A stretch of DNA of 64,000 nucleotides from Panicum virgatum (taxonomy: Eukaryota > Streptophyta > Magnoliopsida > Poales > Poaceae). Shown here one piece after another: positions 2,878-64,000 of the stretch (its first letter is position 1; every line of letters begins with the position of its first letter). The stretch covers positions 26,194,938 to 26,258,937 of the forward strand of contig NC_053146.1 in NCBI RefSeq assembly GCF_016808335.1, given 5' to 3'. Both the position numbers and the translations under genes were made by a program. Below the pieces are notes generated by a model. That model saw nothing but the letters and a program-made list of their open reading frames with translations. It was not told where the DNA came from and ran no database searches.

Positions 2878-3069
2878 CTTTAGTGACGTTTATAAAGTCA
2901 ATAAGCTTTAGTTCTTCCAAATCGAAGTTCGGGACTTCAATTAGTTCCGCGATGTTGATTGGGCTTCATGTAGTTCACTCTCGGACTTTGGGTTCACGTT
3001 CAGGTCTTCATTATCTTCCGTCAAGCTTCTGGATGAGTTCGTATATTCCGTCATCTAGCGATATTATTT
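2878..3069 (-). pseudogene. Degenerate LTR exon A in LTR B
   Basis: The minus strand has a TATAG acceptor-like end just before 3069, then a frame reading SLDDGIYELI, matching TLSDGTYELI in the E LTRs and NLADGDYELV in J. An in-frame TAA follows shortly after. The AAG/GCAAGCCCC donor-like end at 2878 is kept. This copy is a decayed version of the conserved LTR exon described in the findings. Confidence 0.5.
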
Positions 3070-10772: not shown

Positions 10773-10882
10773 TCACTCGTCATAGTCATTGCCGGTCGCA
10801 GACGTATCCCACTCTATGGACCAGCCAGGAGGCAACGAGCAAGGGTAGGTCAAGCTAGCGATCTGGTCCTCAAAACTCATAC
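10773..10882 (-). CDS. LTR exon B (E-minus 3' LTR), conserved small coding exon
   Basis: The minus strand has a TTTTTCAG acceptor-like end just before 10882, then a frame with FEDQIASLTYPCSLPPGW and a TGA at 10773-10775. Length is 110 nt, the same as in E-plus. The product is unknown. See E-plus exon B for the reasoning. Confidence 0.5.
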
Positions 10883-11849: not shown

Positions 11850-12002
11850 CTTCTCGGTAGTTGCTAACTATTTCAGCCCTAGGCTCTTCCGAACTTTGGT
11901 CCGGGGCTTCAGTTAGTTCCGCAGTGTTTACTTGAGCTTCGAGATCACCTCCGTCAGATTCCGGGATCAGCTCGTACGTCCCGTCCGATAAGACAGTCGT
12001 GT
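11850..12002 (-). CDS. LTR exon A (E-minus 3' LTR), conserved small coding exon
   Basis: 153 nt between CATATAG and G/GCAAGCCCC. Its open frame starts in phase 1 and contains LSDGTYELIPESDGG and an acidic SSEEPRAEIVS tail. It differs from E-plus at a handful of residues, and the frame is intact. Joined to exon B at the marked sites it stays in frame. Confidence 0.5.
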
Positions 12003-14391
12003 CTATATGTAATGCAAGAACAACATTATAAGCACACATGGGCAATCGTTTATAGAGTAGTTAAATAACAAAACTAACTACACAAGGCATCATGATCAAC
12101 AGCACAAAAGAAGACAAGTGGGGGTGGTTTTCTTATAACAAACAAAACATAGTTTGCTAACCATTCAACTACTCATAGTACAAACAGTAATAAAATCTGC
12201 CAAAATTACCCTAAGCAGAACATGAACAAAGCAATCTACCCTGTAAAAATCATGCCAAGACTTGTAGTCAAATAAACACAACAAATCATTCATGCAGGCA
12301 GCACATAGACAAACTTGAATTATACAGGTCAAACTAAAGCAAAACAGAAGCTCAAAATTTAACAGGAGCTTGATACAGATAAGAACTAACTACAGTGAAT
12401 TTTTCATGATTTTATCTATACAGAAATAAATATGAGAAAATAAACAAAACAGACAACAGATTAGCAAGATTTATTTTTAGCCCTTGACCTAGCCACGAAC
12501 TGCAGCTCAAACTTCCTAGACAAGCTAAGATACTCCAGATGTACACTCAGGAATAATTTCAGGATTTATTAAGAACAGAAACTATTTACCATAATTAAAG
12601 TCTACTAAATAAGGATTAAACCAAATAAATAGCTACACAAGAGAACTGATCATGAAATTTTTATAACAAAGCTAGTGTAACAAGAGTAAACTACCACCAA
12701 AATTTTATAGCAAAACCAGATTTCAAGCATCAGATAAGAAAAAGATTAAATAACTAGTATTTATAAACCTAGTAACACAAATCAAAATCTACAGCAAAAA
12801 CTTGCAACTAAAGCCTAACATATTATGGTTCTACTGCATAGAGCTCTTCAAGAGGATTCCAAAACATCAAGATTTCCTATTTTACGAATTTTCTATGAAT
12901 TGATACTGAATTTCAAAGTTCACTGAAAAACATTGCAAACCAGTCCCTAAGGCACTATTGCAATGAGTCACTGACTACGCAGATAACCCCCTGGGGTTTT
13001 TCAAATTCAAACCCCGACGTCCCTGGCCGGGTCAGAGAGGGGAGTCGGGGTTTGACCGGCCGTTTCCCGGTGAGGGGGTCCGGCGGCGAGGGTAGAGAGG
13101 TGTGGGAGCTTCACGGGTTCAAGGCGCACCTCTGGGTGCTTGGAATCGAGGCTAGGGTGGTCAGAGACGGGGTGTCGACGGCGAGCGGTGGCTTGCGGGC
13201 TCGGAGCACGGCGGCGGGGTGACTCCGGTGGGGTTCGGGTGAGGGGAAGGGGCCTGGGAGTTGCGCGAGGGCGAGGTGCGGCTAACGGTGGGGGTTGTAG
13301 GGGTGGAGCGGGTCTGGGGTGGCGGCTCCGCGGCGGGGTGAGCTCGCCGGCGTTCCAGCGGGGCGGCAGCGGTGTTCTGCGGTGTTGGAGCGAGGAGAGA
13401 GCAAAGGAGCGAGTGAAATCGACTCCTGGGGTTCTTGTAGTGCTCAGGCGCGCGAAATATCGAGAGCTGGGCCTCTGGTTCGGGCTCTCCACGGCGGCGT
13501 CGCGGTGGCGGCCGCCGGGGTGGTTCTGGAAGCGGCAGGGGTGCGTGGCACGGCCGAGGAGCTCCAGCGCGAGGCAACAGGAGGGGGAGGAGGTCGTCCG
13601 CGACGCGTGGGTGCCAGCGCACGGCGAAGTAATGGCCGGGAAAGCTGGGAAGGCGCCGGCGGGCGGCGCTGTTGGTGGACGGCGGCGAGAAGCAGAGCAG
13701 GGAGGGGGAAGAAGGGGATAAGGGCGATTTTGCAATTTCCAAAATCACCCTTATCCCCTTCTTCCCCCTCCCTGCTCTGCTTCTCGCCGCCGACGCCACC
13801 GACAGCGCCGCCGCCGACGCCTTCCCGGCTTTCCCGGCCATAACTTCGCCGTGCGCTGGCACCCACGCGTCGCGGACGACCTCCTCCCCCTCCTGTTGCC
13901 TCGCGCTGGAGCTCCTCGGCCGTGCCACGCACCCCCGCCGCTTCCAGAGCCACCCCGACGGCCGCCACCGCGACGCCGCCGTGGACAGCCCTGGACAGCG
14001 CCCGCCGCGCCCTTCTAGCGAGCGCCCGAGCCCTACAAGAACCCCAGGAGTCGATTTCACTTGCTCCTTTGCTCTCTCCTCGCTTCCACACCGCAGAACA
14101 CCGCCGCCGCCCCACTGGAACGCCGGCGAGCTCACCCCGCCGCGGAGCCGCCACTGCAGGCCCGCTCCACCCCTACAGCCCCCACCTTTAGCACCGCCTC
14201 GACCTCGCGCAGCTCCTAGACCGCTTCCCCTCGCCCGAACCTCACCGGAGCTACCCCGCCGCCGTGCTCCGAGCCCGCAAGCCGCCGCTCGCCGTCGACA
14301 CCCCATCTTCGACCACCCTAGCCTCGATTCCAAGCACCCAGAGGTGCGCCTTGAACCCGTGAAGCTCCCACACCCCTCCATCCTCGCCGCC

Positions 14392-15488
14392 GGTGAGCCC
14401 CTCGCCGGTAAACCGCCGGTCAAACCCGCGCTCCCCCTCTGACCCGACCCGAGGACCTCGGTTTTGAATTTGAAAAACCCTAGGGGGGTTGTCTGCGTAG
14501 TCAGTGACTCATAGGAATAGTGCCCACAGGGACTTGTTTGTAATAGTTTGCTGTGATCTTTGAAATTCAATATCAATTCATAGAAAATTCATAAAATAGC
14601 AAATCTTGATGTTTTGGAATCCTCTTGAAGAGATCTATGCAGTAGAACCATAATATGTTAGGCTTTAGTTGCAAGTTTTTGCTGTAGATTTTGATTTGTG
14701 TTACTAGGTATATAAATACTTGTTCTTTAATCTTTTTCTTATCTGATGCTTGAAAGCTTGTTTTGCTCTGAAATTTTTGTTGTAGTTGAATCATGTTACA
14801 CTAGTTTTGATATAAAATTTTCATGATCAGTTCTTTGTTATAGTTATTTGTTTGATTTAATCCTTGTTTAGTAGACTTTAATTATGATAAATAGTTTCGA
14901 TTCTTAGTAATTCATGAATTTATTTCTGCATGTTCTTCTGGAGTAGATTAGCTTGTCCAGGAAGTTTGAACCTTAATTCATGACTATAACAGGAGCTAAA
15001 ATTGAATCTTGCTAAACTGATGTCTGTTTTGTTTATTTTCTCAGAATTATTTCCGTATAGATAAAATCATGAAAAATTTTCAGTAGATAAATCATCCCTG
15101 TTTAGATCTCCTGTTAAATTTTGAGATTCTGTTTGGCTCTAGTTTGATTTGTATAATTCAAGCTTGTACTAGGTGTTGCCTGCATAAATGATTTATTGTG
15201 ATTAATTGGGTACATGTCTTGGCATGATTTTTGCAGGGTAGCTTAGTATGTTCATGTTCTGTTTAGGGTAATTTTGGTAGAATTTATTAATATTTGTACT
15301 CTGAGTTGTTGATTTGTTTGCAAAACATGACTTAATTGTATAGGAAATCACCCCCACTTGTTTATGAAGTTAGTCAACTTCATTTGTGCTGTTGATCATG
15401 ATGCCTTGTGTAGTTAAATTTGGTATTTAACTGCTCTATAAACGATTGCCCATGTGTGGTTATAATGTTGTTCTTGCATTACATATAG
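14392..15488 (+). other. Putative intron 1 of the LTR transcript
   Basis: It begins GTGAGC after CTCGCCGCCG in the GC-rich zone and ends ACATATAG before exon A. The sequence switches from very GC-rich to T-rich at the start, as in grass introns. It contains the conserved CTCTATAAACGATTGCCC block shortly before the acceptor. The donor is not kept in the E-minus LTRs (GCGACC and GGACCC instead), so exon 1 is uncertain. Confidence 0.4.
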
Positions 15489-15641
15489 ATACGACTACTT
15501 TGTCGGACGGGACGTACGAGCTGATCCCGGAGTCTGACGGAGGTGGTCTCGAAGCTCAAGTGAACACCGCCGTACTAACTGAAGCCCCGGACCAAAGTTC
15601 GGAAGAGCCTAGAGCTGAAATAGTTAGCGACTACCGAGAAG
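15489..15641 (+). CDS. LTR exon A (E-plus 5' LTR), conserved small coding exon
   Basis: 153 nt bounded by ACATATAG on the left and AAG/GCAAGC, a GC-type donor, on the right. The frame is 2 nt + 50 codons + 1 nt and contains TLSDGTYELIPESDGG followed by an acidic stretch. The J LTR has the same bounded exon at 144 nt (nine fewer) with NLADGDYELVPADS. Phase and frame are kept although the surrounding DNA has diverged. I recognise no domain. The region upstream has no ATG in the GC-rich exon, so the translation start is unknown. Confidence 0.5.
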
Positions 15642-16607
15642 GCAAGCCCCGGACATAACCTATACTTCAAGTTATTATCACTACTGTATTACTTACTTGT
15701 GCATTTACAGTTCATAGGTTTTGAATTGAAACCCTAGATGCATGATCCTAGAAACATATGTACTGAACACTAGACCTGAGTTCGACTACTTGCTAAGCTT
15801 ATAGGACCGGTAAAAGTCGAGTGATTGCCTGTCACTCGCGAGCTTTATAGGAATTGCTTGTTTACTTTCTGTTATCAATATAAGGACGACGGGCGGGGTT
15901 GTGTTCGATATCATGACCTTATGTGATACCCCGTCTGTGTTGATGAACTTGCTAAGGTCGCGGTGTGTGGTAGTGCCGGTTAAGTTTTTGAAAGTACTAG
16001 CCACATGCCGTAAATATGGTACGCGGCAAGCCTAGTAGCCGATTGGACCGGGGAGTGGATATACCTCCCACTCTCTCTTAGGAATAGGTTTTATTTTTAT
16101 GTTGCGCAACACTACGACTTCAAGGGACAAGGTTCGGCCTTGGAGCCCTGTAGTCGGGGAGAGTGCCACTATCCACAAGTCGGAAAGAAAGGTCAACGGT
16201 TGTTTGGGAATGACCCGACGGTATTCCAGACGTGTGTGCTAGGTTACCCTTGCAAGGTTGAATTTCGATTCAGAATCGTCCGCCTCTCACGATGAAATGA
16301 GACTGCTTGATTGATCTGCCACACAGAGTAATAAGAGCAACAATTTTATAATCAATCTTGATGATTTCCTTAGAAGTTCCACCATGATTGGATAGTAGTT
16401 GCTTACATAGAATGGTTAATCTACTAGAATCTTGAAAGCTAAAACTTGAAAGTAAGGACCTACTCTTTATTGCTTTTCAGCAAAGGAAAACCAGAGCCTT
16501 ACAAAGCCTTGCATAGTCTAGCTAAGGTGGGCTACATATACCCGTTGGCGGTTAAGTCTTGCTGAGTATTAGAATACTCAGCCTTGTTGTTGAAAATCCT
16601 TTTTCAG
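15642..16607 (+). other. Putative intron 2, conserved across LTR families
   Basis: Begins GCAAGC and ends TTTTTCAG. Several blocks are conserved with LTR J (62232-63205): CCCTAGATGCATGATCC, GACAACGGGCGGGGTTGTG-like, GTACTAGCCACAT, GATTGGACCGG, GTAGTCGGGGAG and AATCGTCCGCCTCTCACG. Conservation this strong in a non-coding stretch suggests RNA structure or protein-binding function. A near-perfect hairpin sits 25 nt before the acceptor. Confidence 0.4.
16561..16582 (+). promoter_or_regulatory. Conserved hairpin before exon B acceptor
   Basis: Arms GCTGAGTATT and AATACTCAGC with a 2-nt loop AG. The same hairpin is at 10907-10928 and 34400-34421 (inverted), 27731-27752 and, slightly changed, 63160-63181 in J. 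It ends 25 nt before the CAG acceptor, so it could affect splice-site use or act in the RNA. Confidence 0.55.
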
Positions 16608-16717
16608 GTATGACTTTTGAGGATCAGATCGCTAGCTTGACCTATCCTTGCTCGTTGCCTCCTGGCTGGTCCGTAGAGTGGGATACGTCTTCGGCCGGCA
16701 ATGACTATGACGAGTGA
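16608..16717 (+). CDS. LTR exon B (E-plus 5' LTR), conserved small coding exon with stop
   Basis: 110 nt after TTTTTCAG, read as 2 nt + 35 codons + TGA (16715-16717). It contains MTFEDQIASLTYPC and LPPGWSVEWD. J (116 nt) encodes FEDLFASLTWPC and LPPGWSVEWD. Over the 23 aligned codons from FED to EWD I count 8 identical, 11 with synonymous change only and 4 with amino-acid change, which points to selection on protein. Joining exon A to B at the marked sites is in frame in E-plus, E-minus and J. The protein is unknown; a tryptophan/proline motif is its clearest feature. Confidence 0.55.
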
Positions 16718-17090: not shown

Positions 17091-17103
17091 TGGTATCAGA
17101 GCT
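17091..17103 (+). other. Primer binding site, initiator tRNA-Met type (E-plus)
   Basis: TGGTATCAGAGCT, complementary to the 3' end of initiator tRNA-Met, two bases after the LTR end CTGCCACA. Same site on the minus strand at 33880-33892 in E-minus. Confidence 0.9.
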
Positions 17104-17371: not shown

Positions 17372-17748
17372 CCTCAGTCAGCTGAGGGAGTCTGACCTTC
17401 CCGTCGGTGATGCGAGCCGAACGCTGCCCTCAAGCAGTGGCTTACTTGAGGTGCTTCCAATATACCGACTATTAGTTGACTATATTGGAAGTAAAGTGTG
17501 CTCAGTCAGCTGAGGGAGTCTGACCTTTCCGTCGGCGATGCGAACTGAACGCTGCGCTCAAGCAGTGGCCTACTTGAGCTGCTGCCAATATACCGATCTC
17601 GGTCGACTATATTGGGAGTAAAGGAACTCGTGAATACGCCACTGAGTAGCGTATGTTAACGTTGGCCATACGACGGAAATTGTATGGCTGCCGCTTCTAT
17701 AGTGAGCGGTAATGTTTGGGAACGCTTTCATGTGTGCTGGCATGAAAG
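17372..17748 (+). ncRNA. Stem-loop array in the E-plus leader (tandem ~125-nt modules)
   Basis: Module 1 (17372-17491) and module 2 (about 17501-17615) each contain three hairpins: CTCAG/CTGAG, CTCAAG/CTTGAG and CCAATATA/TATATTGG. Four more follow: ATACGC/GCGTAT (17634-17654), CCATAC/GTATGG (17665-17688), CCGCT/AGCGG (17691-17709) and CTTTCATG/CATGAAAG (17724-17748). The outer pair of the second hairpin is C-G in module 1 and G-C in module 2, a compensatory change. E-minus has the same array (33240-33612). A packaging or dimerisation signal is the natural guess, not shown. Confidence 0.6.
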
Positions 17749-18367: not shown

Positions 18368-19270
18368 ATGGCGACTTGTTCCCAGATCTTTTGGGATGAG
18401 GAGGGAAATGCTCATACCGATTGTCTGTACTGGGAGGGTTTTCCGAGGATTCTTTGGGATTCACTTCGTATCTTCCACTACCCAGATCCACCCCAGTACA
18501 CGGGACGCCAGTTTTCTGAGGATGGAATTAAGAAGAATAGAGTTACAATGACCATTCCTCAGCACCCCACCTTGGAGTGGCCACCGATTGAGATTGAGGT
18601 GATTGGGTACCGTCTTGTGGATGCTTTTGAGAAAGCAGCTCTCAACGCTATTACCACTTTTTGTGAGCACCATCCCGAGGAGGTAGCTGCCTACCCTATT
18701 GGTTTGTTTCCAGCAGTCAGTACTGGACATGCAGAGTGGCTGTTCAGGGTCACACACTTTGGGCACTTGATTGGAGATGTAGCGGATGAGACTATTGAGG
18801 CAGTAGTCAGATATATGAATGCTCAGTCTCACTACCAGATACTCCAGCAGCGACACATGGACCAGGTGATAGACTTGGCCCAGAGTTTTCAGCGAGGCCT
18901 TCGTTTGAGGGATACTCAGATTCAGGGACTTCAGGATGCCGTTGCTGGGAGGGATCTGGCCATTGCATAGTTTGAGCATCAGGCTATGGAGCATGGTGCT
19001 GAGATAGAGCAGCGCAACATAGTTATTGGTTTTCTTCAGGGGCAGGTGAATGAGCTTCAAGCAGATTGGGCTGATGCTTTAGCACATGTTGGTATGCTCC
19101 AGGAGCAACTAGATGCCCCAGCTGAGCCTGCAGCAGCAGATGAGGACCCCGAGGAGATTGAGGGAGTTTCTGATCTAGATTCAGAGCACGCACTTGCTGA
19201 GCCTAACCCTCAGCCGGACGATTCTTCTTCCGGCAGTGCCTCTTCTGTGGGCAACCTCGACGACTTCTAG
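18368..19270 (+). pseudogene. orf0-like additional ORF upstream of gag (one in-frame TAG)
   Basis: The ATG at 18368 is preceded directly by TTTTTGATTCAG. 903 nt, 300 codons, with one TAG at 18968-18970 where E-minus has CAG. The N-terminal half starts MATCSQIFWDEEGNAHTDC and holds a compact region rich in W, Y and P. The middle (about residues 155-260) is rich in Q, L and E with heptad-like spacing, probably coiled coil. The tail is acidic and serine-rich, ending SSVGNLDDF. Rice RIRE3 and RIRE8 carry an unassigned ORF (orf0) at the same place, as I recall. Function unknown; a particle-associated or RNA-binding role would be speculation. E-minus has an intact copy of the same length, so the ORF was maintained until recently. 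Confidence 0.75.
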
Positions 19271-19905: not shown

Positions 19906-22900
19906 ATGGTTGGTCATACACGCGGAACGCCTGATGGCTTTGGTTGTGAAACTGGCAGTGGATCTCAGCAACCACCGCCACCCCTGTCGAATCTGGCCGA
20001 GTTAATGGCCATGCAAACAGAGTTGCTTCGCCAGCTAGTCCAAGGGCAACAAAATCAGCCACGCCAACAGTATGGAGGAAGGGAGGCACAACCAGCGGGT
20101 TACCAGGAATTCTTTGGTACCCAACCTCCGCTTTTCAGCAAAGCTGATGACCCATTGGATGCCGATGCTTGGCTTCGTACAATCAATTCCAAGTTTGCTT
20201 TGTTAGTGGTACCATGTATTGATGCAAACAAGGCCCCCTTTGCCGCCCAATAGCTGCGTGGTCCTACACGTATATGGTGGGATAATTATTGTGCAATGTA
20301 GCCTGCTGAACATATCATATCTTGGGAGGAATTCAGAACAGCCTTCAGATCACATCATATTCCGGATGGACTAATTGAAAGAAAGTTGAATGAATTCTTG
20401 GCTCTAGATCAGGGAACCCGCACTGTTCTACAATATGCACAGACCTTCAATCATCTGTGCCAGTATGCGGGCCATCATACTGATACTGATGCCAAGAAAT
20501 GTGATCGTTTCCGTCGTGGCCTCAATACTAAGCTCAAGGAACGTTTAAACTTGGTTCAGCCTAATACCTAAAATGAGCTGGTTAATATGGCCATTACGCA
20601 AGAGGATTGTATTGCTGCACATCGTGCTGAGAAAAAGCGGAAGGCACCAACGGGACCCTCGAGTGCCCAGCCACCGAGGTATCGTCTAGTGCAAAATACT
20701 CCACCCAGGTCTCCACAAAGAAATGCCCAGGTGGGTAGGTTTGTCTTTAGGCCGCCTCAGCAACAAGGAGGATTCAGACCTCTAGTGCCTCAGCAACAGC
20801 AACAGCAGCAGCAACAGCAGCAATTTAGCCCAAGACCGAATGCCCCACAGTTCAATAGTGGGAATAGTAATAATCGATGTTTCAACTGCGGCAGTGCTTC
20901 TCATTTTGCCAAGAATTGTCCACAGCCCAGAAGGAATAATCCAGGGCAAAACTCCAACCAGAATAACAACAAGAGCAAGGGCAAGAGGCAAATGGTGCAA
21001 GTCCGACAAGGGCGAGTTAACTTCACTACTCTTGCAGACCTTCCAGCAGGAGCACCAGTAATGACAGGTACTTTCTCTATCCACAATAAACCCGCAGTCA
21101 TATTATTTGATTCTGGTGCAACACATAGTTTTATAAGTGCCAAATTTGGAGCAAGATTAGGATTGGATTTTTGTCATACTAAGGGATCTTTTATGATAAC
21201 AACCCCTGGTGGGAAGATAGCTTCCAATCAAATCGCTAGATGTGTGCCAATTAAGCTGGGTAGCAAATTGATAAAGACATATTTGATCTTGTTGAACTTA
21301 GAAGGCATGGATATTATCCTGGGCATGAATTGGATGACTACACATAAAGTACTATTAGATATCTCTTCACGAGCTGTCGAGATAGATTCACCACACCAAG
21401 GAGCCACCATACTTTATCTACCACAACAAGAGTGCTTCAACTCTTGTGCCTATGCAGCAAAAGAACTTAAACTTGAAGATATCCCTGTTGTGTGGGAATA
21501 TGCGGATGTATTTCCAGATGATTTGCCTGGAATGCCCCCTGATAGAGATATCGAGTTTGTTATTGAGCTTCAACCCGGTACCGCCCCTATTTCTAAGAGG
21601 TCGTACCGAATGCCTCCAAATGAATTAGCAGAATTGAAAGTCCAACTCCAAGACCTTCTTGACAAAGGCTTTATACGTCCAAGTTCTTCACCCTGGGGAT
21701 GTCCAGCCCTGTTTGTGAAAAAGAAGGACAACAGCTTGAGGCTATGTGTTGATTATCGACCACTCAATGCGGTCACTATTAAAAATAAGTATCCTCTTCC
21801 CCGCATTGATATTCTATTTGATCAGTTAGCTGGAGCTAAGGTTTTCTCTAAGATTGATCTTCGTTCTGGCTACCATCAAATAAAGATCAAACCTTGTGAT
21901 ATTCCAAAGACTGCTTTCTCTACCAGATATGGACTATATGAATATCTGGTTATGTCTTTTGGCCTTACCAACGCCCCAGCATATTTTATGTACTTGATGA
22001 ATTCAGTCTTCATGCCGGAGCTGGATAAATTCGTCGTGGTTTTCATTGACGATATTTTGATCTACTCCAAGAATGAAGAAGATCATGCTGAACATTTGCG
22101 TATCGTTCTTCAACGATTACGAGATCATCATCTTTATGCCAAATTCTCCAAGTGTGAATTTTGGTTGGACAGTGTGAAATTCTTAGGCCACACTATCTCC
22201 AGTGATGGTATATCTGTTGATCCAACTAAAGTACAAGAAGTGATGGATTGGGAATCTCCTAATTTAGTTCATCAAATTCGCAGTTTTCTTGGTTTAGCTG
22301 GCTATTATCGTCGATTCATTACTGATTTCTCCAGAATAGCCAAGCCTATGACGGCGTTATTGAAGAAGGGAGTGAAGTTTGTTTGGAATGATAAGTGTGA
22401 AGAAGCTTTCCAAACTCTCAAAGCAAGATTAACTACCGCTCCAGTGTTGTCTACACCGGACAGTACCAAATCTTTTGATGTCTATTGTGATGCTTCGGGT
22501 ACGGGACTTGGTTGTGTGCTTAAGCAGGACAACCGGGTTATTTCTTATGCATCAAGAGCTCTCCGGAATCATGAGAAGAATTATCCAACCCATGATCTAG
22601 AGTTAGCAGCTGTCATTCACGCTCTTAAGATTTGGAGACATCATCTTATGGGAACTCACTGTAATATTTACACTGACCATAAGAGCCTCAAGTATATCTT
22701 CACTCAAGCTGATCTCAACATGAGACAGAGACGCTGGCTGGAGTTGATAAAGGATTATGATCTAGAAGTGCACTATCATCCAGGAAAGGCTAATGTGGTT
22801 GCGGATGCACTCAGCCGCAAGTCACAATGCCATTGTCTATCTGTAGAACCATTCAATGAAACTCTATGCCAGGAAATGATGAAGTTAAACCTAGAAATGG

Positions 22901-24438
22901 TACCTCAAGGAAGTTTAAACCATATATCCCTTGAGCCTACACTTCATGATAGCATCATCATGGGGCAATTACATGATGAGGGTATCAAAGTCATCAAGGA
23001 AAAGTTATCACAAGGAGAAGTAAAGTACAAATGTTTCATAGTGGATCATAGGGGAGTTCTATGGTTTGAATCCCGACTGGTGGTACCTAAGGATCATCAG
23101 CTTAGAAAGCAAATCCTTGATGAAGCACATCTATCAAAGTTTTCGATTCATCCCGGTGGTACCAAGATGTACCATGATCTCAAACAAAATTTCTGGTGGA
23201 CTCGAATGAAAAGAGAGATCGCCAGATATGTTTCTGAATGTGATGTTTGTCAAAGAGTTAAGGCTAGTCACTTGAAAGTAGCTGGTACTCTCCAACCTTT
23301 ATCTATTCCATCCTGGAAATGGGAGGACATCAGTATGGATTTTATCGTTGGTTTACCCACTAGTCCTCATAAGCATGATTCTGTTTGGGTAATCGTTGAT
23401 AGACTCACCAAGACCGCTCATTTTATTCCAGTGCACACAACTTATTCTGCCAAGAGATACGCAGAGATTTATCTCGATCAGATTGTTCGTTTACATGGAA
23501 TTCCAAAGACGATTATTTCTGATCGTGGGCCTCAGTTTATTGCACGTTTCTGGGAGCAGATGCAAGAATTCCTTGGAACAAAACTAATCCGTAGTTCAGC
23601 TTATCATCCACAAACAGATGGGCAAACTGAACGCATCAATCAAATCCTTGAAGACATGTTGAGGGCATGTACTATTCAATATGGCAAGAACTGGGTCAAG
23701 TGCCTAGCACTGGCAGAGTTTTCATACAATAACAGTTATCAATCCAGCATGCAAATGGCACCATTTGAAGCATTATATGGTCGAAGGTGTCGAACTCCTT
23801 TGAATTGGTCACAAGCTGGGGAACGCAAAATTTTTGGGCCAGATTTAGTCTCGGAGGCAGAGGAGCAAGTCAGAGTTATCCAGGTTAATCTTAAAGCAGC
23901 CCAATCAAGACAGAAAAGTTATGCAGACAAAAGAAGAGATCCTTTACAATTCGAGGTAGGGGACTTTGTATATTTGCGAGTATCTCCTACTAAAGGTGTT
24001 CAACGCTTTGGCTTAAAAGGGAAATTAGCACCCCGATACATCAGACCATTTGAAATTATCGAAACTTGTGGACCCGTTGCCTACCGACTTCGTCTTCCAT
24101 CTCAGTTGGCTTCCATTCATGATGTTTTCCATGTATCCCAACTCCGGAAGTGCACCAGGGTACCTACTGAGATCCTTGAACCACAGGATATCGAGATTGA
24201 ATCCGATCTATCTTATAAGGAGTATCCAATCAAGATTCTTGACACCAAAGAAAGAAGTACTAGAAGGGAGAAAGTTAAAATGTACAAAATCCAGTGGAAT
24301 TAGCATACTGTAGAAGAAGCTACTTGGGAAACTGAAAATTTTCTCCAAAGAAATTTTCCCGACTTTCTTAGAACCAATCCAGGTACCAAGTCTTTGCACC
24401 CTTTTCTTTCTGTAATCTCGGGACGAGATTCCTTTTAG
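19906..24438 (+). pseudogene. gag-pol: Tekay-type gag-pol polyprotein with chromodomain (four in-frame stops)
   Basis: One frame from ATG 19906 to TAG 24436-24438 with stops at 20251, 20299, 20569 and 24301 and no frameshift; the stretch 20587-24300 is open (1,238 codons). Domains: gag capsid (19906-20600); glutamine tract (20792-20823); zinc knuckle [14 protein letters not shown] (20878-20919); aspartic protease [10 protein letters not shown] (about 21103); RT with FIDD catalytic motif (22042-22053); RNase H beginning FDVYCDASG (about 22474); integrase zinc finger (23127-23260) and D, D, E core with SMDF, SDRGPQF and ERINQ (23330-23650); chromodomain (about 24220-24380). It would make the particle, copy the RNA and insert the cDNA; the chromodomain targets heterochromatin in this group. 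The stop at 24301 cuts the chromodomain. Confidence 0.9.
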
Positions 24439-24447: not shown

Positions 24448-26658
24448 CTGTAACACCCCGGGTGTCTGCATAGTAAGTAAATAGGTGTCTGCATAGTAAT
24501 TGTGTATGTTTGATATGCATCATGTGCTTGAATTGCTTGAAAAGGATCTTCTTGTAATTATGAAAGGTTATATGTGTAATTATGATTTTATGCAAGGTCC
24601 TTTATATAGTTATTTGTGAATATAGCTTTTGTGGAGGGTGTTTTTGTAAAATTGCAGTGCATTTAATGCATGACAGCCATTTTGGCTTTTGAGTCTAGAG
24701 TTGAAGTGAATTTGCGTTGAAAAAGACAAATTTCCTAGAATTCAAATTCCTTTCTATGTTTTTAATTTTAACTCTTGAACCTTTGGTCAAATAAATTTTT
24801 GCACAACATCAAAGTTGTAGATCTTGAAAAATTGAACAACTTTCATGTTGGGTACTTTTCCATTTGAGCTTTGGTTTAAAAGTTATCGCTGGTTTACAGT
24901 TTAGTCCCTGGAACTTTTGGAAATTTCAAAATCGCCCTTATCCCCTTATTCCCCCTCCCTGCTCTGCTTCTCGCCGCCGACGCCACCGACAGCGCCGCCG
25001 CCGACGCCTTCCCGGCTTTCCCGGCCATAACTTCGCCGTGCGCTGGCACCCACGCGTCGCGGACGACCTCCTCCCCCTCCTGTTGCCTCGCGCTGGAGCT
25101 CCTCGGCCGTGCCACGCACCCCCGCCGCTTCCAGAGCCACCGCGACGCCGCCGTGGACAGCCCTGGACAGCGCCCGCCGCGCCCTTCTAGCGAGCGCCCG
25201 AGCCCTACAAGAACCCCAGGAGTCGATTTCACTCGCTCCTTTGCTCTCTCCTCGCTTCCACACCGCAGAACACCGCCGCCGCCCCGCTGGAACGCCGGCG
25301 AGCTCACCCCGCCGCGGAGCCGCCACTGCAGTTCCGCTCCACCCCTACAGCCCCCACCTTTAGCACCGCCTCGACCTCGCGCAGCTCCTAGACCGCTTCC
25401 CCTCGCCCGAACCTCACCGGAGCTACCCCGCCGCCGTGCTCCGAGCCCGCAAGCCGCCGCTCGCCGTCGACACCCCATCTCCGACCACCCTAGCCTCGAT
25501 TCCAAGCACCCAGAGGTGCGCCTTGAACCCGTGAAGCTCCCACACCCCTCCATCCTCGCCGCCGGTGAGCCCCTCGCCGGGAAAACGCCGGTCAAACCCG
25601 CGCTCCCCCTCTGACCCGACCCGAGGACCTCAGTTTTGAATTTGAAAAACCCCAGGGGGTTGTCTGCGTAGTCAGTGACTCATAGGAATAGTGCCCACAG
25701 GGACTTGTTTGTAATAGTTTGCTGTGATCTTTGAAATTCAATATCAATTCATAGAAAATTCATAAAATAGCAAATCTTGATGTTTTGGAATCCTCTTGAA
25801 GAGCTCTATGCAGTAGAACCATAATATGTTAGGCTTTAGTTGCAAGTTTTTGCTGTAGATTTTGATTTGTGTTACTAGGTATATAAATACTTGTTCTTTA
25901 ATCTTTTTCTTATCTGATGCTTGAAAGCTTGTTTTGCTCTGAAATTTTTGTGGTAGTTGAATCATGTTACACTAGTTTTTCTATAAAATTTTCATGATCA
26001 TTTCTTTGTTATAGTTATTTGTTTGATTTAATCCTTGTTTAGTAGACTTTCATTATGATAAATAGTTTCTATTCTTAGTAATTCATGAATTTATTTCTGC
26101 ATGTTCTTCTGGAGTAGATTAGCTTGTCCAGGAAGTTTGAGCCTTAATTCATGACTAGAACAGGAGCTAAAATTGAATCTTGCTAAACTGATGTCTGTTT
26201 TGTTTATTTTCTCAGAATTATTTCCTTATAGATAAAATCTTGAAACATTCGCAGTAGATAAATCATCCCTGTGTAGATCTCCTGTTAAATTTTGAGATTC
26301 TGTTTGGCTCTAGTTTGATTTGTATAATTCAAGCTTGTACTAGGTGTTGCCTGCATAAATGATTTATTGTGATTAATTGGTACATGTCTTGGCATGATTT
26401 TTGCAGGGTAGCTTAGTATGTTCATGTTCTGTTTAGGGTAATTTTGGTAGAATTTATTAATTTTTGTACTCTGAGTTGTTGATTTGTTTGCAAAACATGA
26501 CTTAATTGTATAGGAAATCACCCCCACTTGTTTATGAAGTTAGTCAACTTCATTTGTGCTGTTGATCATGATGCCTTGTGTAGTTAAATTTGGTATTTAA
26601 CTGCTCTATAAACGATTGCCCATGTGTGGTTATAATGTTGTTCTTGCATTACATATAG

Positions 26659-26811
26659 ATACGACTACTTTGTCGGACGGGACGTACGAGCTGATCCCGG
26701 AGTCTGACGGAGGTGGTCTCGAAGCTCAAGTGAACACCGCCGTACTAACTGAAGCCCCGGACCAAAGTTCGGAAGAGCCTAGAGCTGAAATAGTTAGCGA
26801 CTACCGAGAAG
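26659..26811 (+). CDS. LTR exon A (E-plus 3' LTR)
   Basis: The encoded peptide is identical to the 5' LTR copy at 15489-15641, with the same CATATAG acceptor-like and AAG/GCAAGC donor-like borders. The frame is intact. In a full-length transcript this copy lies downstream of gag-pol and could be reached by splicing from an upstream start, as with retroviral LTR-overlapping genes. Confidence 0.5.
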
Positions 26812-27777
26812 GCAAGCCCCGGACATAACCTATACTTCAAGTTATTATCACTACTGTATTACTTACTTGTGCATTTACAGTTCATAGGTTTTGAATTGAA
26901 ACCCTAGATGCATGATCCTAGAAACATATGTACTGAACACTAGACCTGAGTTCGACTACTTGCTAAGCTTATAGGACCGGTAAAAGTCGAGTGATTGCCT
27001 GTCACTCGCGAGCTTTATAGGAATTGCTTGTTTACTTTCTGTTATCAATATAAGGACGACGGGCGGGGTTGTGTTCGATATCATGACCTTATGTGATACC
27101 CCGTCTGTGTTGATGAACTTGCTAAGGTCGCGGTGTGTGGTAGTGCCGGTTAAGTTTTTGAAAGTACTAGCCACATGCCGTAAATATGGTACGCGGCAAG
27201 CCTAGTAGCCGATTGGACCGGGGAGTGGATATACCTCCCACTCTCTCTTAGGAATAGGTTTTATTTTTATGTTGCGCAACACTACGACTTCAAGGGACAA
27301 GGTTCGGCCTTGGAGCCCTGTAGTCGGGGAGAGTGGCACTATCCACAAGTCGGAAAGAAAGGTCAACGGTTGTTTGGGAATGACCCGACGGTATTCCAGA
27401 CGTGTGTGCTAGGTTACCCTTGCAAGGTTGAATTTCGATTCAGAATCGTCCGCCTCTCACGATGAAATGAGACTGCTTGATTGATCTGCCACACAGAGTA
27501 ATAAGAGCAACAATTTTATAATCAATCTTGATGATTTCCTTAGAAGTTCCACCATGATTGGATAGTAGTTGCTTACATAGAATGGTTAATCTACTAGAAT
27601 CTTGAAAGCTAAAACTTGAAAGTAAGGACCTACTCTTTATTGCTTTTCAGCAAAGGAAAACCAGAGCCTTACAAAGCCTTGCATAGTCTAGCTAAGGTGG
27701 GCTACATATACCCGTTGGCGGTTAAGTCTTGCTGAGTATTAGAATACTCAGCCTTGTTGTTGAAAATCCTTTTTCAG

Positions 27778-27887
27778 GTATGACTTTTGAGGATCAGATC
27801 GCTAGCTTGACCTATCCTTGCTCGTTGCCTCCTGGCTGGTCCGTAGAGTGGGATACGTCTTCGGCCGGCAATGACTATGACGAGTGA
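27778..27887 (+). CDS. LTR exon B (E-plus 3' LTR)
   Basis: Same 110-nt exon as 16608-16717, ending in TGA at 27885-27887, preceded by the hairpin (27731-27752) and TTTTTCAG. Frame intact. Confidence 0.5.
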
Positions 27888-28258
27888 TACCATGCTTGGG
27901 CTAGCCTGGTATCCTTTTTGCGACGTGTTGTAGCCGTCGTGTTTTATCTTCCGCTGTTTAAACCCTGAAGCTTTATACTTGTGGCTTGTACAACTGTTTT
28001 ACTTAAGTTGGCTTTGTAATAATGTTTTTAACTGGTTTGTAATTATTACCATGCCTGTGTTGTAAAAATTGTGGTTGTAATATCTCTGGACTCGCCTTCG
28101 TGCGGGGTATGCTTGTTCGATCCGAGAATCGGTGGTTGTATCGGGACGTTACCCGACAGACCAAAAATTGTTCCGTTTGAAGTGCGTTTAAGCTAATGTT
28201 GCCTTTATGGTGATGGCCTGCGCACTTGAGCCGAGATAATTTAGGCGGTTCTGCCACA

Positions 28259-33894: not shown

Positions 33895-36800
33895 TGTGGC
33901 AGAACCGCCTAAATTATCCCGGCTCAAGTGCGCAGGCCATCACCATAAAGGCAACATTAGCTTAAACGCACTTCAAACGGAACAATTTTTGTCTGTCGGG
34001 TAACGTCCCGATACAACCACCGATTCTCGGATCGAACAAGCATACCCCGCACAAAGGCGAGTCCAGAGATATTACAACCACAATTTTTACAACACAGGCA
34101 TGGTAATAATTACAAACCAGATAAAAACATTATTACAAAGCCAACTTAAGTAAAACAGTTGTACAAGCCACAAGTATAAAGCTTCAGGGTTTAAACAGCG
34201 GAAGATAAAACACGACGGCTACAACACGTCGCAAAAAGGATACCAGGCTAGCCCAAGCATGGTATCACTCGTCATAGTCATTGCCGGCCGAAGACGTATC
34301 CCACTCTACGGACCAGCCAGGAGGCAACGAGCAAGGATAGGTCAAGCTAGCGATCTGATCCTCAAACGTCATACCTGAAAAAGGGTTTTCAACAACAAGG
34401 CTGAGTATTCTAATACTCAGCAAGACTTAACCGCCAACGGGTATATGTAGCCCACCTTAGCTAGACTATGCAAGGCTTTGTAAGGCTCTGGTTTTCCTTT
34501 GCTGAAAAGCAATAAAGAGTAGGTCCTTACTTTCAAGTTTTAGCTTTCAAGATTCTAGTAGATTAACCATTCTATGTAAGCAACTACTATCCAATCATGG
34601 TGGAACTTCTAAGCAAATCATCAAGATTGATTATAAAATTGTTGCTCTTATTACTCTGTGTGGCAGATCAATCAAGCAGTCTCATTTCATCGTGAGAGGC
34701 GGACGATTCCGGGATCAGCTCGTACGTCCTGTCCGATAAGGCAGTCGTGTCTATATGTAATGCAAGAACAACATTATAAGCACACATGGGCAATCGTTTA
34801 TAGAGTAGTTAAATAACAAAACTAACTACACAAGGCATCATGATCAACAGCACAAAAAAAGTTGACTAACTTCATAAACAAGTGGGGGTGGTTTTCTTAT
34901 AACAAACAAAACATAGTTTGCTAACCAATCAACTACTCATAGTACAAACAGTAATAAAATCTACCAAAATTACACTAAACAGAACATGAACAAAGCAATC
35001 TACCCTGTAAAAATCAAGCCAAGACTTGTAGTCAAATAAACACAACAAATCATTCATGCAGGCAGCACATAGACAAACTTGAATTATACAGGTCAAACTA
35101 GAGCAAAACAGAAGCTCAAAATTTAACAGGAGCTTGATACAGATAAGTACTAACTACAGTGAATTTTTCATGATTTTATCTATACAGAAATAAATATGAG
35201 AAAATAAAAAAAACAGACAACAGATTAGCAAGATTTATTTTTATCCCTTGACCTAGCCATGAACTGCAGCTCAAACTTCCTAGACAAGCTAATATACTCC
35301 AGATATACACTCAGGAATAATTTCAGGATTTATCAAGAACAGAAACTATTTACCATAATTAAAGTCTACTAAACAAGGATTAAACCAAATAAATAGCTAC
35401 ACAAGAGACCTGATCATGAAATTTTTATAACAAAGCTAGTGTAACAAGAGTAAACTACCACCAAAATTTTATAGGAAAACCAGCTTTCAAGCATCAGATA
35501 AGAAAAAGATTAAATAACTAGTATTTATAAACCTAGTAACACAAATCAAAATCTACAGCAAAAACTTGCAACTAAAGCCTAACATATTATGGTTCTACTG
35601 CATAGAGCTCTTCAAGAGGATTCCAAAACATCAAGATTTCCTATTTTACGAATTTTCTATGAATTGATACTGAATTTCAAAGTTCACTGAAAAACATTGC
35701 AAACCAGTCCCTAAGGCACTATTGCAATGAGTCACTGACTACGCAGATAACCCCCTGGGGTTTTTCAAATTCAAACCCGACGTCCCTGGCCGGGTCAGAG
35801 AGGGGAGGCGGGGTTTGACCGGCCGTTTCCCGGCGAGAGGGTCGCCGGCGGCGAGGGTAGAGAGGTGTGGGAGCTTCACGGGTTCAAGGCGCACCTCTGG
35901 GTGCTTGGAATCGAGGCTAGGGTGGTCGAAGACGGGGTGTCGACGGCGAGCGGCGGCTTGCGGGCTCGGAGCACGGCGGCGGGGTGACTCCGGTGGGGTT
36001 CGGGTGAGGGGAAGGGGCCTGGGAGTTGCGCGAGGGCGAGGTGCGGCTAACGGTGGGGGCTGTAGGGGTGGAGCTGGTCTGGGGTGGCGGCTCCGCGGTG
36101 GGGTGAGCTCGCCGGCGTTCCAGCGGGGCGGCGGCGGTGTTCTGCGGTGTGGGAGCGAGGAGAGAGCAAAGGAGGGAGTGAAATCGACTCCTGGGGTTCT
36201 TGTAGTGCTCAGGCGCACGAAATATCGAGAGCTGGGCCTCTGGTTCGGGCTCTCCACGGCGGCGTCGCGGTGGCGGCCGCCGGGGTGGTTCTGGAAGCTG
36301 CAGGGGTGCGTGGCACGGCCGAGGAGTTCCAGCGCGAGGCAACAGGAGGGGGAGGAGGTCGTCCGCGACGCGTGGATGCCAGCGCACGGCGAAGTAATGG
36401 CCGGGAAAGCTGGGAAGGCGCCGGCGGGCGGCGCTGTCGGTGGACGGCGGCGAGAAGCAGAGCAGGGAGGGGGAAGAAGGGGATAAGGGCGATTTTGCAA
36501 TTTCCAAAAGTTCCAGGGACTAAACTGTAAACCAGCGATAACTTTTAAACCAAAGCTCAAAAGGAAAAGTGCCCAACATGAAAGTTGTTGAATTTTTCAA
36601 GATCTATAACTTTGATGTTGTGTAAAAATTTATTTGACCAAAGATACAGGAGCTAAAATTAAAAACATAGAAAGGAATTTGAATTCTAGGAAATTTGTCT
36701 TTTTCAAAGCAATTTCACATCAAATGTAGACTTACAAGCAAAAATGGCTACCATGCATTAAATGCACTGAAATTTTACAAAAACACCCTCGACAAAAGCT

Positions 36801-62087: not shown

Positions 62088-62231
62088 AAACGATTAATCT
62101 CGCGGACGGTGACTACGAACTGGTGCCCGCGGACTCTCGTGCGGATCAGGAGGTCTCCTTGAACTGTACTAACTTGTCTCAAGACCTGGGCCAAGCCCCA
62201 GAAGCTTTTCTGCCTGACAGTGCCCAAGAAG
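62088..62231 (+). CDS. LTR exon A (J), conserved small coding exon
   Basis: 144 nt between GGCATATAG and AAG/GCAAGCCCC. The frame (2 nt + 47 codons + 1 nt) reads NLADGDYELVPADS, then an acidic stretch. It is nine nucleotides shorter than in E, so the phase is unchanged. Open throughout. Confidence 0.5.
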
Positions 62232-63159
62232 GCAAGCCCCGGAGCATAATCCCACTATTTTTCCGAATTATCATTCTGCTATCTATTTATTAATGTATGG
62301 TAATAGTTGGTTTTCTGCATTTAAGTTCTCTAGGCGTTGATCGAAAACCCTAGATGCATGATCCATAGGAACCTATGTTTGATACCGGATCTCTCTATCG
62401 ACTAGTTGCCATGCTAAATAGGTACGGTAGAAGTCGAGTGGTTTTCTGCCTCTCGCGAGCAAATAGGAATTGTACTGACTTTAATTCCTGTTGAAATGTA
62501 AGGACAACGGGCGGGGTTGTGTAGTTGTGATACCCCGCTGGTGTAGTCAAAAATGGCTAAGGTCGAGGTGTGTGGCTCATTTCGTTAAGCGTTTGAAAGT
62601 ACTAGCCACATACCGAGAAATATGGTAATCGGTAAGCTTAAGTACCTGATTGGACCGGCGAGTGGAACGATCTCGCACCCTCCTGGTAGAAGTAGGGTTT
62701 ATTTTTATGTCGCGACGTACGGGTGCAGAGTGGTCGGACTCTGTAGTCGGGGAGGGTGTTCCGGATCCACGGACTGGAAAGAAAGGGGAAAAGTAGCGTG
62801 GGCGGGAGCGAAGTCAATCCCCATGCGTGTGGTCTAGGTTCCCCTGGCCAGGTTGAAATTCGATTCGGAATCGTCCGCCTCTCACGGCATGAGATTGCTT
62901 AATAATTTCGGTCACATAGAGTAACAAGTGGAATATGATGATGAAAATACTGCTGGTTGATTAAATGGTTGCTCTACCATGTTTGAGTAGAGTTAGTTGC
63001 AAATTTAGAATGGTTAATTCCACTAGAATCTGGCTAAGTAAAACCTGAAAGTAAGGATCAACACTTAGCGGCATTTTTGGCAAACAAACCCTACCAACCA
63101 AAAAAGGCCTTGCATGTCTAGTTATCGGACTATGTTATATCCGGAGACGGGTCAGTCTT

Positions 63160-63181
63160 GCTGAGTATTAGCATACTCAGC
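63160..63181 (+). promoter_or_regulatory. Conserved hairpin before exon B acceptor (J)
   Basis: GCTGAGTAT/ATACTCAGC arms with a 4-nt loop TAGC. It ends 24 nt before the CAG acceptor at 63205, the same spacing as in E. Confidence 0.55.
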
Positions 63182-63205
63182 CTTGCTTGTGGCACTGTTT
63201 TTCAG

Positions 63206-63321
63206 GTACTAACTTTGAAGATCTGTTTGCGAGTCTTACTTGGCCTTGTACTCTGCCTCCGGGTTGGTCTGTTGAGTGGGATGGCCCTTCAGCTGGTGCT
63301 AATCACCCTCCCGCTGAGTGA
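63206..63321 (+). CDS. LTR exon B (J), conserved small coding exon with stop
   Basis: 116 nt after TTTTTCAG; frame 2 nt + 37 codons + TGA (63319-63321). It encodes FEDLFASLTWPC and LPPGWSVEWD and is two codons longer than in E near its C-terminus. There is no ATG at the exon start, unlike E, so it must be read from an upstream exon. Together with exon A this is the key comparison for the LTR gene. Confidence 0.55.
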
Positions 63322-63692: not shown

Positions 63693-64000
63693 CGCAGACA
63701 GCCTACCAGAGATGGCAACCTCGGTTTTCAAAACAACAATTTAAAACTTGACTTCAAAGCTACTAAAGTTTTTGAAAGAGTTTAGGATCTCCAAGGACAA
63801 GTCTAGGACGTAAAGCCCTAGGGAATCTTATGGGTATAATCAGGTGGCTTATTTTGTATGGCTAACTTCCAGCACCTTACTTTTCAGTATTTAAATTCTG
63901 CAACTACATCATCGCCACGAAGGTATGCTTACTCAGTCAGCTGAGGGAGTCTGACCTTCCCGTCGGTGATGCGAGCCGAATGCTGGAGCTCAAGCAGTGG
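63693..64000 (+). other. J leader (partial)
   Basis: Homologous to the start of the E-plus leader (17104-17441): GGACGTAAAGCCCTAGGGAA, a donor-like AAG/GTATGC (about 63920), then CTCAGTCAGCTGAG and GTCGGTGATGCGAGCCGA. It ends within the CTCAAG arm of the second hairpin at the window edge. Confidence 0.65.

Follow-up and report, generated by a model that had tools for sequence, protein, structure and literature searches.

Can the long terminal repeat (LTR) of a grass retrotransposon hold a spliced, protein-coding gene of its own? Plant retrotransposon LTRs are usually treated as regulatory DNA, and the question is raised by two short open stretches, exons A and B, that a sequence-only reading picked out in a 64,000-nucleotide window of the Panicum virgatum genome (contig NC_053146.1, positions 26,194,938 to 26,258,937; all coordinates below are those of this window). 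From the comparisons of LTR copies and database proteins described here, we consider it likely that A and B constitute a selectively maintained coding sequence of the retrotransposon, joined by the splicing of a GC-AG intron within the LTR.

Exons A and B and the intron that separates them (intron 2) all lie inside the LTR of a Ty3/gypsy element, E. We refer to its 5' and 3' LTRs as E5 and E3, to the E-minus LTR as Em, and to further LTRs as J, K and M. E3 is full length (24449..28258, plus strand, TGTAACACC...CTGCCACA, 3810 bp), and E5 is truncated and stands head-to-head with Em. Directly after E5, at 17091, is TGGTATCAGAGC, which we take to fit the initiator tRNA-Met as the primer-binding site (PBS). 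An ORF0 in two frames (18368-19270) lies upstream of the gag-pol frames, which are found between 19906 and 24303, and Pfam matches in two pieces of the frame 20587-24303 have the Ty3/gypsy pol order RVP_2, RVT_1, RT_RNaseH, Integrase_H2C2 and rve. This pol order, the LTR ends of the TG...CA type (TGTAACACC/CTGCCACA) and a PBS adjoining the 5' LTR identify E as a Ty3/gypsy LTR retrotransposon. The Tekay label given in the sequence-only reading is compatible with the layout of E; no chromodomain was found by Pfam in the open part of pol, which ends at 24303. ORF0 of E matched no Pfam family, and in four sequences its piN/piS is about 0-0.4 along much of the frame. J is read as a 5' LTR because internal sequence follows it, and the next J-family copy, 11.9 kb downstream, is 100% identical from exon A to exon B, suggesting that the J family is young. 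The head-to-head junction of E5 and Em forms a large palindrome (13400-14072), around which, near 13700, Rfam returned many microRNA-like matches, all below the gathering score. A further stretch at about 14590-14690 (25760-25859 in E3) shows only 4.2% divergence among copies within an otherwise variable upstream LTR.

In E5, exon A (15489..15641, plus strand) holds 50 full codons with 2 leading nucleotides and 1 trailing nucleotide, intron 2 (15642..16607, plus) is of the GC-AG type, and exon B (16608..16717, plus) ends with the stop codon TGA. The borders proposed in the sequence-only reading were reproduced in E-plus, E-minus and J, with ATATAG before A, GAAG|GCAAGC at its end and TTTTTCAG before B. 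Its claim that the joined exons form a single open frame in all three also held, as did the exon lengths of A and B (153 and 110 nt in E versus 144 and 116 nt in J, differing by 9 and 6). The border dinucleotides are well kept: the AG of ATATAG (15483..15488, plus) is present in 28/28 E and 30/30 J copies, the GC of the predicted 5' splice site GCAAGC (15642..15647, plus) in 27/28 E and 28/30 J copies, and the AG of the predicted 3' splice site TTTTTCAG (16600..16607, plus) in 26/28 E and 30/30 J copies. Upstream of exon A, a TATA-like block, CTCTATAAACG (15434..15444, plus), occurs in E (in variant form in some copies), in J and in the decayed copy M, and is a possible core promoter. Both exons recur in E3 (A at 26659..26811 and B at 27778..27887, plus), in Em (A at 11850..12002 and B at 10773..10882, minus) and in J, where A (62088..62231), intron 2 (62232..63205) and B (63206..63321) are on the plus strand. 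K retains exon B (34265..34374, minus) and an exon A remnant (34705..34748, minus) in which the match to exon A stops after its first 46 nt and which adjoins a deletion into intron 2. The third diverged LTR, M, has a decayed exon A with stop codons (2878..3069, minus), and its LTR similarity ends near 2542, before any exon B.

Comparison of the E and J LTRs indicates that it is the protein sequence of exon B that has been kept. Over the 23 codons from FED to EWD, the sequence-only reading had counted 8 identical, 11 synonymous and 4 residue-changing codons, and our recount gave exactly these numbers. Of 25 residues in exon B, 19 are kept between E and J; when the same substitutions were redistributed over the same bases, a mean of 10.9 residues was kept and 0 of 100,000 randomisations reached 19. 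Across the 23 codons dN is 0.12 and synonymous sites are saturated (pS 0.89), and the two other frames have dN/dS ratios of 2.58 and 0.91. When stop-free segments in the three forward frames of the two LTRs were compared, exon B, with E 6e-18, and exon A, with 2e-10, came out as the two best matches. The signal was weaker in the first 15 codons of exon A, where 3,436 of 100,000 randomisations reached the observed conservation. Between E and Em, exon A conservation was reached in 676 of 50,000 randomisations, and exon B gave no signal (4/6 changes nonsynonymous, with 34,188 of 50,000 randomisations reaching the observed value).

We then considered copies within each family in the window's own genome (1.13 Gb in 627 contigs). 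The E and J queries gave 5,287 and 4,066 first-look candidate places, respectively, mostly unscored and possibly overlapping. From the best-scoring E matches, 40 were scored, and the set analysed comprised 28 copies (E5, Em and 26 of 38 copies from outside the window, with the other 12 rows left out); 40 J candidates, likewise the best-scoring ones, were also scored, giving a set of 30 (J and 29 copies, with 11 further rows unused), so that both sets are biased towards high-scoring copies. The sequence-only reading had named a dN/dS near 1, or frameshifts as frequent as in the flanks, as evidence against it. Neither was seen in the copies of these two families. Among the 28 E copies, piN/piS is 0.29 in exon A and 0.26-0.27 in exon B, and the exons are without the indels that the flanks and intron have. 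The low ratio is found only in the predicted frame, with the other frames at 0.91-1.92, and changes placed on a tree built from the intron gave 0.33 (A) and 0.25 (B) versus 0.91-1.51 in the other frames. Third codon positions took 65/119 changes in A and 32/59 in B on this tree. No gap interval falls in the 263 exon sites versus 35 in the 1,166 sites of flanks and intron (3 in 100 upstream, 26 in 966 intron and 6 in 100 downstream sites), whereas 7.9 would be expected in the exons (Poisson P about 4e-4); the intervals counted are distinct ones, and their independence as events is unproven. In the intron itself, 0/66 overlapping windows of 50 codons had a ratio below 0.30, but of those of 35 codons 2/72 were under 0.28, the lowest being 0.22; taken alone, the exon B ratio is thus not extreme. 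One E copy carries a premature stop (L028) and another has lost the stop (L015). The J copies bore out the indel part of the claim (0 in 260 exon sites versus 19 in 1,373 others) and the frame part only weakly, with omega of 0.61 in A and 0.55 in B versus 0.51 in one wrong frame of B, as would be expected for young copies; one of the 30 has a premature stop. The earlier proposal of protein-level constraint on a stretch of LTR is thus supported by the frame-specific piN/piS, the absence of exon indels and the residues conserved between E and J.

The LTR also carries constraint of another kind, given that intron 2 is non-coding, conserved and partly foldable. Identity between E and J is 71.5% in intron 2, compared with 52.1% in exon A, 62.5% in exon B and 45.8% downstream. 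Consensus folding gave z-scores of -2 to -4.2 in many windows of intron 2 and near 0 in several; downstream of exon B they stayed around 0 until near the LTR end, where -2.75 was reached. Double changes in the predicted pairs number 11/160 and 15/167 and come from few lineages, and with so few to support individual pairs, we regard the fold as a lead and not a result. No fitting Rfam family was found, one further match (E 4) lying outside the intron. In a prokaryote collection one intron pattern had no match, and the single hit obtained there (L009), which reads like an efflux-pump protein, we took as chance. Shortly before exon B, an inverted repeat with 8-nt arms, CTGAGTATTAG(A/C)ATACTCAG, is kept in E (16562-16581) and J (63161-63180). 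After the PBS, a near-identical block beginning CTCAGTCAGCTGAGGGAGTCTGACC occurs at 17374-17430 and again near 17500 in E, and near 63930-63990 in J. It is closely preceded by a donor-like sequence, AG|GTAAGG in E and AAG|GTATGC in J, and its potential hairpin, with a palindromic CAGCTG, resembles a dimerisation signal. We rejected the block near 17374 as coding sequence, since the DNA is near-identical between E and J and duplicated in E, and judged by eye it is more likely an RNA element.

Two readings would dispense with present-day coding selection. Conservation could act at the RNA or DNA level, as in a regulatory element, with the open frame incidental, and the strongly conserved, partly foldable and non-coding intron 2 speaks for such a reading. 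However, the exons are unlike the intron and flanks in their frame-specific piN/piS, their excess of third-position changes and their lack of indels, and exon B has kept its residues between E and J while its synonymous sites became saturated, so that we regard this as the least probable of the explanations considered. Scarcely more credible is capture from the host, with A and B as a gene fragment that is decaying neutrally and owes its constraint to a past in the host. The intron-exon structure, unusual for an LTR, would suit a capture, but the whole block of A, intron and B is common to E and J, exon B is still in frame after synonymous saturation, and copies within the E family show measurable constraint.

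Evidence for splicing at the A|B border comes from database proteins. The joined E peptide (86 residues) matched 1,727 proteins at E up to 1, and 3 of the 120 listed cover the junction. A six-sequence profile matched 3,330 of the 7,992 proteins scored at E up to 0.001, with two further junction readers, P0121 and P0122, among the 120 listed. The proposed border is therefore read exactly by five protein clusters (P0002, P0006, P0017, P0121 and P0122), which have ..EG followed by [M/N/E/T][T/S/N]FED; P0121 is J-like. All five are from JGI source contigs, and these intron-less contigs are presumably transcripts. The junction pattern searched, which covers the MSF and J types only and left out the MTF variant of E5 itself and that of P0006, had 0 matches in the 1.13-Gb genome, suggesting that the five clusters are probably spliced RNA; processed DNA copies in other species may be another source. 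A search with exon B alone returned 33 proteins, which besides P0006, P0017 and P0122 mostly read the 3' end of the intron or start in exon B; genome-like copies mostly have ..FSG or FLG, the intron end, before xxFED. In P0217 and similar entries, many database copies of exon B carry W or R where the stop should be and the frame continues, which may be selection by length because the search favoured long frames. Taken together, a selected and probably spliced coding sequence within the LTR is well supported by these comparisons.

The left border of exon A is also reflected in database proteins. In P0001, two copies of exon A are joined by a codon for D, exactly as donor-to-acceptor splicing between two LTRs predicts. 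This joint would be such a splice if it does not reflect DNA duplication, which it could, given the tandem repeats that exon A contains in P0003 and P0004. Among 203 of 244 proteins surveyed (41 had no motif match), the residue before the exon A border is I, L, R, V, K or, in P0001, E; codons for the first five can end in A, and the E of P0001 can belong to the joint. The border codon reads N or Y in 4/203 proteins, indicating loss of the G of the AG.

The sequence-only reading had noted that the first exon lacks an ATG and guessed that the N-terminus comes from elsewhere. We found no AUG in exon A of E5 or J, and J has an in-frame stop upstream of it. An upstream AUG in E is in frame and open in only 18/28 copies, two E copies (L008 and L025) have ATG as the first codon of A, and an ATG at the start of exon B is present in E copies and not in J. 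Over the 12 codons upstream of A in the 28 E copies, piN/piS is 18, with 0 synonymous versus 29 nonsynonymous tree changes; coding constraint therefore begins at the left border of exon A, and extension of the exon to the AUG at 15452 was ruled out on these values and the 18/28 open copies. No coding exon was seen in the LTR upstream of A in E3 and 20 copies with 35-codon windows, a size that shorter exons could escape, and all 40 lowest-ratio windows listed contain stops. The guess therefore fits: the limit of constraint at the border, the upstream stop in J and the scan point to an N-terminus from another exon or to a non-AUG start. A scan of the 5' internal region used four sequences (E, K and 2 of 20 fetched stretches, with 15 unmatched and 3 partial), in which ORF0 gave the expected constraint.

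Between these two sources of an N-terminus the evidence is mixed. Four of the spliced clusters (P0002, P0006, P0017 and P0121) keep, by eye, genomic-type sequence upstream of A, which indicates that the ATATAG acceptor was not used in them, while P0001 argues for its use. It is possible, if somewhat doubtful, that translation begins at a non-AUG codon within or just before exon A and that the upstream exon is a non-coding LTR leader, GC-rich, with a donor AG|GTGCGC and an intron 1. In both E5 and J, exon A has ACG as its first full codon, but P0006 has serine at this position. The GC-rich leader lacks AUG in 7/7 E copies (1.7-2.1 expected in each, the copies being related) and keeps the AG|GTGCGC donor in 6/7, but AUGs are present in the J leader, and none of the database proteins inspected shows a joint between leader and A.

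The predicted protein is short and has few recognizable features. The C-terminal box of the A-B peptide reads FEDxxASLTWPCTLPPGWSVEWD, and the residues before the stop differ by family (TSSAGNDYDE versus GPSAGANHPPAE). Neither the E nor the J peptide matched a Pfam family, the E peptide had only three weak matches in PDB (E 0.25 or higher), AlphaFold gave no confident fold for P0006 (mean pLDDT 39.7), no relatives were found in a viral collection, and the tail of P0020 after exon A had no convincing match within the window. We propose that LTR transcripts are spliced only in part, as the GC donor suggests. Unspliced RNA, still carrying the conserved and partly foldable intron 2, could act as genomic RNA, and spliced RNA would give a small acidic accessory protein of about 85 residues from A and B plus a further N-terminus. 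This N-terminus would not be coded directly upstream of A; its source would be either an upstream exon spliced to A at ATATAG|A, the most useful case being a splice from the internal region into exon A in the 3' LTR, or initiation at a non-AUG codon close to where A begins.

An unlikely alternative to a free accessory protein is that the coding sequence A-B works as an upstream ORF with a conserved peptide in the 5' leader, the nascent peptide controlling translation of the downstream ORF0 and gag. As placed in the 5' LTR, the frame does precede the PBS, ORF0 (18368-19270) and gag-pol, and the peptide is short, without a Pfam family or a confident fold. Typical stalling peptides are conserved up to the stop, however, whereas here the last residues vary between families, and part of the peptide requires prior splicing.

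How, then, does an LTR-borne accessory protein compare with known systems? The frames of MMTV sag and HIV-1 nef either extend into the LTR from beyond it or occupy U3, and neither has its own intron. As for these genes, the protein frame of A+B coincides with LTR sequence and may depend on a splice from upstream; unlike them, both exons and the intron are inside the LTR, the donor is GC and there is no Pfam match. No sequence relation to sag or nef was found with Pfam, with only weak PDB matches; the comparison is one of analogy. In retroviruses, the packaging signal can lie inside an intron and is lost from spliced RNA. Intron 2 would resemble such an intron as conserved, partly foldable RNA that is lost on splicing; here the intron is within the LTR, and a packaging role would be an analogy. 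Among plant Ty3/gypsy elements, the Ogre group has an intron in gag-pol that is partially spliced, according to the available text of Neumann et al. (2019; PMC6317226); that intron is placed there between internal frames, whereas the A-B intron is in the LTR. The available portion of Gao et al. (2012; PMC3485330) describes Retrosat2, RIRE3 and RIRE8 as Ty3/gypsy elements of grasses whose LTRs measure about 3 kb or longer and which have an ORF0 upstream of gag-pol. E shares this layout, and its long LTR and its ORF0 are in keeping with a Retrosat2-like element. Both exons, however, are in the LTR and ORF0 of E is separate at 18368-19270, so A+B is not the ORF0 of Retrosat2-type elements, which in the same portion is a different protein encoded upstream of gag-pol. 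There the LTR is treated as regulatory and not coding, and LTR searches outside Oryza gave nothing at E below 1e-5. Our literature search, made outside subscription papers, found no LTR gene of the A-B kind for plant elements, and within that scope A-B may be new in print.

In summary, a selected, spliced coding sequence in the LTR would mean that a major component of grass genomes encodes one more protein. Tentatively, we put forward a spliced regulatory gene in the LTRs of grass Ty3/gypsy elements by which every LTR, including solo LTRs, is a potential two-exon gene, the weak GC-AG intron doubles as a conserved structured RNA, and splicing selects, as in complex retroviruses, between genomic RNA and the mRNA of an accessory protein. 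If the joint between exon A copies in P0001 is a splice, transcripts would also link the 5' and 3' LTR copies. These LTRs are very abundant; A-B would confer coding potential on solo LTRs, and it would make the balance between genomic RNA and mRNA directly testable.
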